From positions 1-64,000 of the forward strand of contig CACAYF010000006.1 of NCBI GenBank assembly GCA_902536655.1: a stretch of DNA of 64,000 bases, read 5' to 3'. This document shows, one piece after another, positions 212 to 5,805 of the stretch; position 1 is the stretch's first letter; each line of letters starts with the position of its first letter. The notes beneath the pieces were generated by a model. That model did no database searches and was not told the origin of the DNA. It was given only the letters and a program-made list of their open reading frames with translations. This stretch comes from an uncultured Alphaproteobacteria bacterium (GTDB lineage Bacteria > Pseudomonadota > Alphaproteobacteria > Methylaequorales > Methylaequoraceae). Made by a program: the position numbers and the translations under genes.

Positions 212-1474
212 TCAAATTATTTTAATTTGGTCCATCCAACTTGATTTTATATCTAGTGTCACTTCACTTTTATAGAAAGATTCTCTATTTGCCATTCCAA
301 TGAGGTCACAAATAACTGACTCTGGACAGTTTACTGATTTTAATCTTTCTATTACAGAATATTTAAATGAAATTGAGGTTTTACTACTTGATATTTTTTT
401 CAGTTCATCATTTAATTTTTTTTCATACTGAAACTTATGTAGTTCAATATTATCAAAATAATTTTTAAGTAAGGAACCTCTATCGGAAAATTTATAAATT
501 TTTTCAATTTTAGATAGTGAGATTCCTACCAAAGGTATTACTCTTCTTTTATATATATTTTTTATCTTTCTGATGGAGTTTGATCTAATAATTATATATG
601 GGTTATATTTATTGAGATCAACATCCTCTGCTTCTAAACCAATAATTTCAGAATATGAACACCCTGTATCCAGCATTATGCCACTCATACAACTAATGAA
701 AGTATTATTTTTAAGACAAAAATCTTTAATTCTTATTAATTCTTGATCTGAGAATTTTTGATAACTACTTTTAGTGAAAATATTTGGCCATTTAAGACCT
801 AAAAATGGATTTTTTTTATCTACTAAGTATTTTTGAAAAATCACTGAAAAAAAATTATGTAGATTAGATTGATTCCTCTTACCTGAAGAAATTCTATCTA
901 ATTTAATAAAGTGGCTTTTAAAAGTGTTGGCATCGTTAGTGTTATATGAGTCTATTGGTTTATCTCCACAAATCTCTATTAAAAGTGAAAGAGATTTTTT
1001 TATTGAATATAACTTTTTTTTGTCATTTGAAATATTCATATCTTTTAAATATTCGTCAACAAGTGTACTTAAAGAAATTTCTTCTGATGTACTATTATCT
1101 AAAAGAATTCTTTCAATAGAAATGTTGTTGTCATTACTGAGGTTTTTATTTTTTAAAAGATTTATCAAGTCTTTTTTACTAAAAAATAGTTTGTTAACTA
1201 AATCATCGAAATCGTCAATAAAGCGTAATGTATATTTTTGCGAATCAAATTCATTATTAAAGAATTTTTTAAAATATTTATTCGAATAATTTTCTGCAAT
1301 TTGAAACATTTTTTTATGTTCTAAAGCCTGAAGTTTTGCTCTTTTGATAGCTATTGGAATTTTATTTGTTTTTAAAGAGATTTTGAGTGTTTTTCTTCCC
1401 AATAAATTTGAAAGTTTTGAAGGTACGGCTCTTTGGTACCAATATTGATTCCCATGTTTATAGATATATTTCAT
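212..1474 (-). CDS. tyrosine recombinase/integrase, DUF6538-type N-terminus, active site substituted
   Basis: 420 residues. The N-terminus (YIYKHGNQYWYQRAVPSKL) resembles the DUF6538 arm-binding region of alphaproteobacterial phage-type integrases. The C-terminal catalytic fold is recognisable from DTGCSYSEIIGL near residue 270, RRVIPLVG in the beta hairpin and a terminal FYKSEVTL...W segment. Related proteins carry R, H/K, R, H/W and a Tyr nucleophile. Here the first Arg position (TGxR) is Ser, the HxxR motif reads ISFK, the LGH/GGW position reads IGMA, and only the Tyr remains. ATG at 1474 is preceded by AGAAG. The gene starts 14 nt after the tRNA-Leu 3' end, the classic place for an integrase of an element inserted in a tRNA. 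It may be catalytically dead or repurposed. The frame is fully open. Confidence 0.8.
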   Translation of the reverse strand: MKYIYKHGNQYWYQRAVPSKLSNLLGRKTLKISLKTNKIPIAIKRAKLQALEHKKMFQIAENYSNKYFKKFFNNEFDSQKYTLRFIDDFDDLVNKLFFSKKDLINLLKNKNLSNDNNISIERILLDNSTSEEISLSTLVDEYLKDMNISNDKKKLYSIKKSLSLLIEICGDKPIDSYNTNDANTFKSHFIKLDRISSGKRNQSNLHNFFSVIFQKYLVDKKNPFLGLKWPNIFTKSSYQKFSDQELIRIKDFCLKNNTFISCMSGIMLDTGCSYSEIIGLEAEDVDLNKYNPYIIIRSNSIRKIKNIYKRRVIPLVGISLSKIEKIYKFSDRGSLLKNYFDNIELHKFQYEKKLNDELKKISSSKTSISFKYSVIERLKSVNCPESVICDLIGMANRESFYKSEVTLDIKSSWMDQIKII

Positions 1475-1488
1475 ACTTCTAATTTCGC

Positions 1489-1577
1489 TGGTGCGGTCGA
1501 GAAGACTCGAACTTCCACAGGCAATTAAGCCTACAACGACCTCAACGTTGCGCGTCTACCAGTTCCGCCACGACCGC
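1489..1577 (-). tRNA. tRNA-Leu(GAG)
   Basis: The cloverleaf reads on the minus strand: acceptor GCGGTCG pairs with CGACCGC, the anticodon loop is TTGAGGT with anticodon GAG, there is a long variable arm as expected for Leu, the T-loop is TTCGAGT, and CCA is encoded. Its 5' end is 6 nt beyond the pccA stop codon, so it may be transcribed with pccBA. Its 3' end abuts the recombinase gene and is the likely attachment site. Confidence 0.95.
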
Positions 1578-1583
1578 ATGAGT

Positions 1584-3572
1584 TTATTCAAATTCGAGGA
1601 TTATTTGGTCAACTTCAAGACTATCTCCCTCAGAACAATTTATTTTTTTTATCTTTGTTTTCTTTTCTGATTTAATAATATTTTCCATTTTCATAGCCTC
1701 TATAATAGCTAATGGCTGATTTTCTTCTATTTCTTGATCTTTTTTTACTAGAATTGATACCAACAATCCTGGCATAGGTGCCATCAAATATTTTGAATTA
1801 TCTTCTTTCTTTCTTGGAATCATGAAATTATTTAATTCAGAATGTCTATTCGAGAGGACAAGAATGTCGTGTATTGCTCCTTTGTGATTTATTGAAAACT
1901 TTGGACCATTTCTTTTGATACTAAAATACATCAAGCTATTATCAATTATTGCAGAAAACAGTGGATAACCTATTTTCCAATTGCTTTTAAGGTTCAGATA
2001 TTTTTTATCTACGTAGATATCATAACTTTTATTAAAATTATTAAATGAAATAGCAACGTTGGATTTATTTTCTTTATCAATTACGCACCAATTATTATCA
2101 ACAGTTTTGTTAAAACCTTTTAATTGATTTGAAATTGAAGCCGCCCTTAATAGATATTTATAATTTATGAAAGTTGCGACTGCGTATAATATTGTTTTGT
2201 CTTTAAGATCTGTTATGTATGGATTGAATCCCTTATTATAATTTTCTGCGATAAACGATGTAGAATAATCTCCATTTAAAAATTCTGGTTTTTGGATAAT
2301 ATTTGATACAAAGTCTTTATTGGTTTTTACTCCCTCAATAAAGTATTTATCTAAAGCATTGACCATTTCTAGAATTGTGTCTTTTCTTTTATTGGTATAA
2401 GTACATAACTTTGATATCATCGGGTCGTAGTACATGCTAATTTCTGACCCTTCAACAACGCCAGAGTCAACTCTTATATTTTTTCCTGATGGTTCGATAT
2501 ATCTTGTCAATCTCCCAATACTAGGAAGAAAGTTTTTAGAAGAGTCCTCAGCATAGATTCTGCATTCCAAAGCTGACCCATCAAATTTTATTTGATCTTG
2601 GGACAATGAAAGCTTTTCCCCGGAAGCAATTCTAAGCATCTGTTCAACTAAATCAACTCCAGTTATTAACTCAGTTACAGGGTGTTCGACTTGGAGTCTA
2701 GTATTCATTTCAAGGAAATAAAAGTTTTTATCTTTGTCAACAACAAACTCCACAGTTCCTGCAGAATAATAACCAACAGCTTTGGCTAGTTGAATAGCTT
2801 CATTTACCATTTTCTCTCTTAAAGTCTTTGTTACAAATATACTTGGAGCTTCTTCAATAACTTTTTGATGTCTTCTTTGAATTGTACACTCCCTCTCTCC
2901 AAGATGAATGAAATTCCCAAACTGATCACCGAGGACCTGAATTTCTATGTGTTTTGGAAATTCAATGAATTTTTCTATGAAAACCCTCTCATCTCCAAAG
3001 CTTGATTTAGCTTCATTAATTGCAGAGTTAAAATTATCTTCTAATTCCTTTTCATTAAATGCAACTCGCATCCCTTTACCTCCTCCACCTGCAGATGCCT
3101 TAACCATCAAAGGATATCCAATTATTTTTGCCTGTTTAATGGCGCTGTTTATATCTGAAACAACTTCTAAACCACCCGGCACAACAGAGACACCTGCTGC
3201 CTTTGCAATTTTTTTTGATCTTATCTTATCTCCCATAGACGAAATAGCTTCACTGGGTGGACCGATGAAAGTCTTACCAATTTTATTAACCTCGTCTCTA
3301 AAGTTTACATTTTCTGATAGAAAGCCGTATCCAGGATGTACACCGTCTGCGTTAGACTTTTTCGTTGCATCAATTATTTTATCAATTCTAAGATAACTAT
3401 CTATGGAAGTGTCCCCACCTATATTTATACATTCGTCTGACATATTTACGTGAGGTGCATTTAAGTCTGGATCAGAGCAAATAGATACAGTTTTTATTCC
3501 CATCTGATGAGCAGTTTTGATTATTCTGCAAGCAATTTCCCCTCTATTGGCTATTAAAATCTTTTTCAACAT
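1584..3572 (-). CDS. pccA: propionyl-CoA carboxylase alpha subunit (biotin carboxylase + BCCP)
   Basis: 662 residues, the usual length for an acyl-CoA carboxylase alpha chain. The N-terminal half is biotin carboxylase: ILIANRGEIACRI at the start, the ATP-grasp glycine loop KASAGGGGKGMR near 158-169, and ERECTIQRRHQKV near 226-238. The C-terminus is a biotinyl domain with EAMKMEN, making Lys628 the biotin site. Paired with PccB one base upstream, it carboxylates propionyl-CoA to methylmalonyl-CoA in the cytoplasm. The middle region between the carboxylase and the biotinyl domain (about 455-590) is poorly conserved by eye, as is normal. Methylcrotonyl- or acetyl-CoA specificity cannot be excluded, but the PccB-like partner favours propionyl-CoA. 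Confidence 0.92.
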   Translation of the reverse strand: MLKKILIANRGEIACRIIKTAHQMGIKTVSICSDPDLNAPHVNMSDECINIGGDTSIDSYLRIDKIIDATKKSNADGVHPGYGFLSENVNFRDEVNKIGKTFIGPPSEAISSMGDKIRSKKIAKAAGVSVVPGGLEVVSDINSAIKQAKIIGYPLMVKASAGGGGKGMRVAFNEKELEDNFNSAINEAKSSFGDERVFIEKFIEFPKHIEIQVLGDQFGNFIHLGERECTIQRRHQKVIEEAPSIFVTKTLREKMVNEAIQLAKAVGYYSAGTVEFVVDKDKNFYFLEMNTRLQVEHPVTELITGVDLVEQMLRIASGEKLSLSQDQIKFDGSALECRIYAEDSSKNFLPSIGRLTRYIEPSGKNIRVDSGVVEGSEISMYYDPMISKLCTYTNKRKDTILEMVNALDKYFIEGVKTNKDFVSNIIQKPEFLNGDYSTSFIAENYNKGFNPYITDLKDKTILYAVATFINYKYLLRAASISNQLKGFNKTVDNNWCVIDKENKSNVAISFNNFNKSYDIYVDKKYLNLKSNWKIGYPLFSAIIDNSLMYFSIKRNGPKFSINHKGAIHDILVLSNRHSELNNFMIPRKKEDNSKYLMAPMPGLLVSILVKKDQEIEENQPLAIIEAMKMENIIKSEKKTKIKKINCSEGDSLEVDQIILEFE

Positions 3573-5142: not shown

Positions 5143-5805
5143 TTAACTTATATTTTTAAAAAAAAATGAAATATTTTTTATTATTTTTATAAAATCCTCG
5201 TTCATTGATAATTGTTCATCTACAACACCCCATCTTTTTTGCTGATAATTATACTCTAAGTTTGTTAATTTATATAGGGTCTTATAATTGATTTTTTTAT
5301 TTATGAAAAAATAGCTTAAAATAACGGATTTAGTTAATGATGATAATTTAAAAAGTGTTGTTAATTTAAAAATATCTAACTTATCCAAATATGATTTGAA
5401 TGATAAGTTTTTTATATTACTTGAATGTACAATAGAAAAAATTTTTTCCAAATTACAATCAAATAGCTTCTCAAATTTAGATATAAATGGATCAAATTCT
5501 TTTTCCATAATTTTAAGTAATTCATTTTCATCAAAAAATCTAAACAATAAAATATCAAAATTAAGCAATTCTATTATTTTTTTTTTTATTTGTTCAATCT
5601 CATCTTTGCTTAAGTTACATGAAAAAAGTGTAAGATTTGTTAATGAGTTAGGGTCCTTTGATTTCACACCAGTAAGATATTCTCGAACAATTAGTTCGGC
5701 ATGTTTTTTTCTTTTAACAAACAATATATTACCGTTTTCAGTTTTTAAATTCTGACTATTTTTTTTAAATCCAAAATTGTTGTTAATCTTGACAATTTTT
5801 ATCAT
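5143..5805 (-). CDS. ATP12-family F1-ATPase assembly chaperone
   Basis: 220 residues, divergent and K/N-rich, but with the family landmarks in order: a VKRKKHAELIVREYL-type start, FDILLFRFFDENELLK near 100 (matching the family's DLL-YR--P--L), FDPFISKFEKLF (matching WDP-L-W), and a C-terminal YQQKRWGVVDEQ matching the diagnostic Q--WG-DEE segment. In mitochondria ATP12 binds F1 alpha subunits before assembly, and alphaproteobacterial homologues are presumed to act similarly. It overlaps the upstream pseudouridine synthase by 4 nt (ATGA), and the two are often neighbours in Alphaproteobacteria. Confidence rests on motif pattern plus context. Confidence 0.8.
   Translation of the reverse strand: MIKIVKINNNFGFKKNSQNLKTENGNILFVKRKKHAELIVREYLTGVKSKDPNSLTNLTLFSCNLSKDEIEQIKKKIIELLNFDILLFRFFDENELLKIMEKEFDPFISKFEKLFDCNLEKIFSIVHSSNIKNLSFKSYLDKLDIFKLTTLFKLSSLTKSVILSYFFINKKINYKTLYKLTNLEYNYQQKRWGVVDEQLSMNEDFIKIIKNISFFFKNIS

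Follow-up and report, generated by a model that had tools for sequence, protein, structure and literature searches.

What keeps the reading frame of an integrase intact once most of its catalytic residues have been replaced? This question is raised by a minus-strand open reading frame near one end of the window (the whole 64,000-nucleotide stretch of DNA that was analysed), whose product resembles a tyrosine recombinase. The frame begins with ATG and contains zero internal stops over its 420 aa, as the preliminary description of this DNA had reported. Because the window starts at a contig end (G000:C6:1), the downstream flank of the gene was taken from relatives.

Table 1. Features of the integrase-like gene and its surroundings in the window
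Feature	Position	Strand	Basis or remark
c1, small lipoprotein-like gene, convergent, conserved; 3' end only (contig edge)	1..133	+	sequence and synteny
Predicted catalytically dead tyrosine recombinase (putative domesticated integrase), 420 aa	212..1474	-	sequence, Pfam, orthologues, dN/dS
Degenerate catalytic domain, residues 241-418	221..754	-	sub-threshold PF00589; Foldseek (low-confidence model)
Tyr401, invariant in 20/20 orthologues reaching the position	272..274	-	orthologue alignment
Met394-Ala395 at the Trp (GGW) position	290..295	-	alignment
I-S-F-K (368-371) replacing H-x-x-R of active relatives	362..373	-	alignment
Lys305, beta-hairpin Lys position, varying among orthologues	560..562	-	alignment
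Ser273 replacing catalytic Arg I of active relatives	656..658	-	alignment
Core-binding-like helical region, about residues 135-230	785..1072	-	model helices and Foldseek
DUF6538 domain, N-terminal, residues 1-58	1301..1474	-	Pfam PF20172; secondary structure; most conserved part of the family
tRNA-Leu(GAG)	1489..1577	-	CCA end 14 bp upstream of the integrase-like ATG, same strand
Biotin-carboxylase-like (pccA-like) gene	1584..3572	-	6 bp from tRNA-Leu(GAG); conserved upstream flank

Fold and catalytic residues

By searching Pfam, PF20172 (DUF6538) was found on residues 3-58 with 43.3 bits, above the gathering cut-off of 27, and Phage_integrase (PF00589) gave a sub-threshold match of 16.1 bits against 27.1. 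DUF6538 is present in all 17 orthologues scanned, and PF00589 appears weakly in 6 of them. The full-length AlphaFold2 model, computed from a four-row alignment, is poor (pLDDT 57); its Foldseek matches at E<=0.001 are exclusively tyrosine recombinases, and in this weak model the helical region matches the lambda Int core-binding domain 2oxo with a TM score of 0.76 on the target. The fold is thus recognisable from the alignment to active relatives and from these structural matches, as had been proposed, and the order of DUF6538 followed by a degenerate catalytic domain, according to Pfam, the alignment to active relatives and Foldseek with the weak model, is that of tyrosine recombinases. On the other hand, the protein scores 18 bits with the XerD equivalog model, whose cut-off is 329.6, and is not identified as an XerC/XerD chromosome-dimer recombinase; phmmer against all PDB chains returned no relative of solved structure at E<=1.

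The N domain was modelled with a pLDDT of 78 and a predicted order of two beta strands, a helix, a beta strand and a long helix. This order fits that of integrase arm-binding domains. A fold search of the N-domain model gave no significant PDB match, and DUF6538 is presumed to be an arm-site DNA-binding domain.

The protein was aligned with 19 active relatives, one of them encoded on a phage contig and the other 18 at loci in alphaproteobacterial families other than the window's, in which R, K, H, R and Y are each present in 19/19. At these columns the window protein has S273, K305, I368, K371 and Y401, and the GGW segment lies opposite I392-G393-M394-A395, where different alignments place the W over M394 or over A395. 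The preliminary description had read the Arg of TGxR as Ser, HxxR as ISFK and GGW as IGMA, and had proposed an alignment with DUF6538-type integrases; that alignment confirms all three readings, the catalytic Arg, His, Arg and Trp being replaced. Its further statement that a Tyr alone is left holds for Tyr401 and needs correction for Lys305, which is present too, in a column that is variable among orthologues. Across 18-20 orthologues, the Arg I column contains S/T/K/M/N and Arg in none, the beta-hairpin Lys column K/N/I/H/R, the His column I/V/Q/K/S/T/G/Y/L and His in none, the Arg II column K/R/G/C, and the Trp column neither Trp nor His in any. By contrast with these columns, Arg297, Arg302 and Arg311 of the beta region are invariant among orthologues. 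As judged from the alignment, the R-K-H-R-(H/W)-Y set of an active integrase is incomplete in this family, with R, H, R and W conserved nowhere among the orthologues.

Vertical inheritance and selection

The gene was sought in 32 genomes of the window's family (the whole order as sampled) and was found in 20 of them, as a single copy in each, at 34-89% identity. All full-length orthologues are open, and the other pieces lie at contig ends or are split across contigs. tRNA-Leu(GAG) stands immediately upstream in every copy with a visible 5' flank, and the order pccA-like gene, tRNA-Leu(GAG), integrase-like gene, convergent lipoprotein-like c1 is conserved in relatives. Seven other genomes have the tRNA-Leu(GAG) locus and lack the gene. 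In a species tree built from seven flanking housekeeping proteins, with which the gene tree is broadly in agreement, 19 carriers and these 7 non-carriers occupy the two sides of one branch (support 100/100); therefore, a single gain (or a single loss) accounts for the distribution, with no loss among the carriers sampled. In five genomes, drawn from several genera (L066, L015, L071, L075, L076), an mgtE-like gene is located between tRNA-Leu/the integrase-like gene and c1; one of the five, G019, is without the integrase-like gene.

No genes of an integrative element surround the integrase-like gene, which is alone between tRNA-Leu and c1, and no consistent attR copy (duplicated tRNA end) was detected downstream (of 18 genomes, the majority gave P of 0.6-1.0). 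A genomic island was rejected on these grounds, namely a single gene, no element genes and no consistent attR copy. Phage or plasmid relatives were absent from the tblastn results, as were relatives in IMG/VR with a family query; PADLOC matched no defence-system family, and no published report of this gene was found in the open-access literature searched. A second DUF6538-like integrase, non-orthologous to the window gene and with apparently intact catalytic motifs, was observed at G001:C1:114003-114542 (L087).

The preliminary description had left a choice between recent decay and a retained DNA-binding role, and had proposed the computation of dN/dS on orthologues as a check. For orthologue pairs with open frames and dS of 0.2-1.0, dN/dS is 0.11-0.33 over the whole gene and less than 0.5 in each of three regions, all well below 1, and in most pairs it is lowest in residues 1-60. 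In a simulation of neutral drift, about 5 stops accumulated at 0.05 substitutions per site and about 9 at 0.1, and P(open) was 0 in 2000 runs at 0.1; thus, an intact frame by chance is excluded, in line with the earlier expectation that decay would bring stops. A pseudogene underway, with its frame still unbroken, might be proposed because the catalytic residues are lost and the gene has a higher evolutionary rate than the genes beside it. However, interior copies are all open, the identical losses are common to all orthologues down to 34% identity in seven genera, the N domain is nearly frozen, and in the simulation 0.05-0.1 substitutions per site are enough to break the frame. With dN/dS this low, recent decay is therefore ruled out, its probability being negligible.

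The alternative that the preliminary description had offered, a retained DNA-binding role, gains support from the distribution of conservation within the protein. The mean pairwise identity of the N domain is 0.66-0.70 in the window family versus 0.40-0.41 in the active relatives, whereas that of the catalytic domain is 0.42 in the window family versus 0.57-0.60 in the active relatives; the overall means are similar (0.40 and 0.47, respectively). Conservation is thus flipped, the N domain being the most conserved part in the window family and the catalytic domain in the active relatives. A conserved tandem repeat, which matches the position of repeats in active relatives and may be the bound site, also supports such a role.

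Tandem repeats beside tRNA genes and at gene ends

In the active DUF6538 relatives, the integrase gene lies directly 3' of a tRNA at 13 of 18 bacterial loci, four of these tRNAs being tRNA-Leu(GAG), and these 13 genes start approximately 60-90 bp past the tRNA on the same strand. When exact 8-bp tandem repeats were counted around the active loci, a peak appeared at period 12 (8 events, compared with 0-2 at most other periods), and among repeats in the 60 bp surrounding the start codon, the best one has period 12 in 14 of 19 loci; these period-12 repeats lie over the integrase start codon itself. The Fisher-combined P for this enrichment is about 1e-14, with the qualification that some loci are interrelated and not fully independent. 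The repeat at the tRNA-Leu(GAG) locus of G331 is GGTCGTAGAAATGGTCGTAG, and TGACGTACAAAATGACGTACAA and GGTAGACCGAATGGTAGACC are further tandem repeats of active relatives.

All 32 genomes of the window's family were searched with patterns for two head-to-tail TGTRGTA copies at a period of 11 bp (TGTRGTA-N4-TGTRGTA). In seven genomes, belonging to four genera (G015, G016, G020, G022, G023, G025 and G026), the tandem repeat stands beside the start of the integrase-like gene, as a TTGTGGTAGAAATGTAGTATT-like sequence between tRNA-Leu and the ATG. It also occurs 3' of tRNA-Ser(GCT) in 16 genomes of four genera (candidate site TTGTGGTAGAAATGTGGTATT), 15 of them with an offset of +3 to +83 bp and G030 with +245; G020 has the repeat at two successive 11-bp steps. 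A further location is 1-3 bp past the stop codon of m16 in all 14 genomes that have m16 (four genera), where the flanks are unalignable between genomes although the tandem site is kept. The m16 gene (L212:1754-2371 = G001:C12:12253-12870) encodes a predicted secreted protein of 206 aa without a Pfam family; in G003 it is broken by a frameshift, and the tandem site after its stop is still present. m16 was found in carrier-side genomes only, so the absence of its site from non-carriers is no independent test.

In the whole genome of G000, a search allowing up to one mismatch gives just two matches, the tRNA-Ser site and the m16 site. The 25 carrier-side genomes together contain about 20 exact copies, of which two or so are likely due to chance, and the 7 genomes that lack the integrase-like gene contain none; since the gene and the sites arose on one shared branch, this co-occurrence counts as one event. 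The window itself contains no TGTRGTA tandem copy, and the gene-side site is missing from the window's genus, where the ATG is 8-14 bp past the tRNA; consequently, autoregulation cannot be general. In G021 the site is absent at the three main loci (integrase-like gene start, tRNA-Ser(GCT) and m16), and the motif match on contig G021:C40 was set aside because it lies inside a coding region. Partial matches in non-carriers (the first half-site only in G013/14, and TGTGGTTG in G027/28) were attributed to chance or to coding sequence and discounted, and 8 exact 18-mer matches in viral contigs were likewise discounted, being by a rough estimate close to chance for the size of the collection. Matches by TonB-receptor and tungstate-binding-protein-like genes were observed in G025, G026 and G020 (L217, L221, L220), and this neighbourhood is a possible fourth conserved location of the site. 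A motif-like match in G006 (C7:60803, L135) lies within a region of repeated 'GATGAGACTTCTGTGTC'-type units.

By comparing the two groups, the same layout of tRNA, tandem repeat and ATG was found in the active relatives and in the genera that keep the gene-side site, and GTAGAAATG is common to the G331 tRNA-Leu(GAG) repeat GGTCGTAGAAATGGTCGTAG and TTGTGGTAGAAATGTGGTAT; the repeat period is 11 bp in the window family versus mostly 12 bp in the active relatives. These similarities suggest that the TGTRGTA tandem is probably an old arm-type or operator site of the integrase, which would have persisted alongside the domain recognising it. In general, the window family resembles the tRNA-targeting DUF6538 integrases of Alphaproteobacteria (PF20172 plus PF00589) in domain order, in its place 3' of a tRNA, in strand, in the use of tRNA-Leu(GAG), as in four active loci, and in the tandem repeats by the start codon. 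It differs from them in lacking R/H/R/W and a surrounding element, in being vertically inherited, and in having an N domain more conserved than its catalytic domain.

Possible roles and competing explanations

The reading that we favour, and consider reasonably likely, is that of a domesticated, catalytically dead integrase that would bind arm-type sites as a regulator or site occupant; as far as the sequences indicate, its survival is probably explained by DNA binding, with the tandem repeat at a few gene ends as the recognised sequence. The gene may be what remains of an integrative element that exploited tRNA-Leu(GAG) in the lineage's ancestor. Once Arg, His, Arg and Trp were lost, the protein could presumably no longer cut and join DNA, and selection would have retained it for binding. 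The DUF6538 N domain would read the two head-to-tail TGTRGTA copies, one helical turn apart, while the remainder of the protein would supply dimer or co-operative contacts, and the occupied sites would be the one 3' of tRNA-Ser(GCT), the one at the m16 3' end and, in some genera, the one beside its own gene. We infer both this binding and its effect: the bound protein might limit transcription past these 3' ends, its own gene included, and/or might keep other integrases off tRNA attachment sites. A stronger version of the proposal, in which the protein would have become a dedicated, site-specific factor for gene 3' ends, stopping transcription as a DNA roadblock after tRNA-Leu, tRNA-Ser and the secreted-protein gene and/or guarding tRNA attachment sites from incoming elements, is tentative and somewhat doubtful.

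Streamlined small genomes usually lose useless genes. If the favoured reading is true, a dead integrase would be chromosomal and vertically inherited in small streamlined genomes, and because the tandem repeats at the 3' ends of tRNAs and genes provide a concrete target, its use is directly testable. To our knowledge, there are very few cases of bacterial tyrosine recombinases turned non-catalytic DNA binders, namely MrpR and TnsF, both on mobile elements.

MrpR, the master repressor of the B. subtilis prophage SPbeta, has the tyrosine-recombinase fold with R replaced by V/S, H by N and W by V, and with Tyr and Lys kept; its Tyr is required for DNA binding and stability, and recombination is absent (PMC10516654). 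It represses via a repeated element, and its authors suggested that such recruitment is wider than assumed (PMC10516654). MrpR is the best precedent for a dead integrase acting as a DNA-binding regulator, as the window protein also combines a recombinase fold without catalytic Arg/His/Trp with a retained Tyr and Lys. For the repeated element bound by MrpR, the conserved tandem motif at several loci is a candidate counterpart. MrpR is a Firmicutes prophage repressor, whereas the window protein is chromosomal and lineage-wide, with no prophage, and has an extra DUF6538 N domain; phmmer against all PDB chains gave no sequence homology to MrpR (PDB 8A0A) at E<=1. Similarly, TnsF of Tn6022-type Tn7 elements keeps an inactivated tyrosine-recombinase domain for recognition (PMC10293859). 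The window protein shares with it a dead domain that has been kept, in TnsF for sequence recognition, but TnsF carries zinc fingers and functions in the transposition of Tn7, whereas the N-terminus of the window protein is DUF6538. No Tn7 genes or zinc fingers were found at the window locus, whose flanks are housekeeping genes.

The motif could instead belong to another regulator, with the conserved dead integrase in a DNA-binding or structural role of its own and the link coincidental. Boxes of the OmpR/PhoB type are 7-bp direct repeats with a 4-bp spacer, and the 7+4 bp geometry of TGTRGTA is that of the OmpR family; moreover, gene and motif share one phylogenetic event, and the motif is missing by the gene in the window's genus. 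However, the motif between tRNA and ATG stands where active relatives have their own tandem repeats, the sites lie at 3' ends outside promoters, before a convergent gene (tRNA-Ser) or just past stop codons, and about two copies per genome are few for a global regulator. This explanation is therefore unlikely. The idea that the protein acts through protein or RNA contacts, for example by pairing with an active recombinase as one of its subunits or by binding the motif in the transcript, is less likely still. Every site lies in a transcribed 3' end in sense orientation, and G001 has another integrase with intact motifs, but protein searches revealed no second tyrosine recombinase of this kind common to all carriers, the N domain belongs to the integrase DNA-binding class, and the one-turn tandem spacing suits duplex DNA.

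It is very improbable that the window protein still recombines DNA by means of an unusual active site built from Tyr401 and other basic residues. The invariance of Tyr401 and of the three beta-region Arg residues would agree with such a site, yet all four of the other positions (Arg I, His, Arg II and Trp) have lost the catalytic residue and vary freely, and Arg302 and Arg311 are common to active relatives, which have the full catalytic set besides. Neither an element, nor an attR copy, nor a partner was found at the locus, and MrpR retains its Tyr and Lys without recombination (PMC10516654). A domesticated, DNA-binding integrase thus remains the favoured reading.

Two minor observations concern the neighbourhood of the gene. 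Between G000 and G003, dS is 0.175 in the integrase-like gene and 0.61-0.83 in the neighbouring pccA/pccB, and this contrast (noted for G003 and G005) suggests homologous recombination across the locus at 212-3572 of the window. A 220-aa open reading frame at 5143-5805 on the minus strand, flanked by pccB-like and pseudouridine-synthase-like genes, has no NCBIfam match and is conserved in the family with dN/dS of 0.15-0.23.
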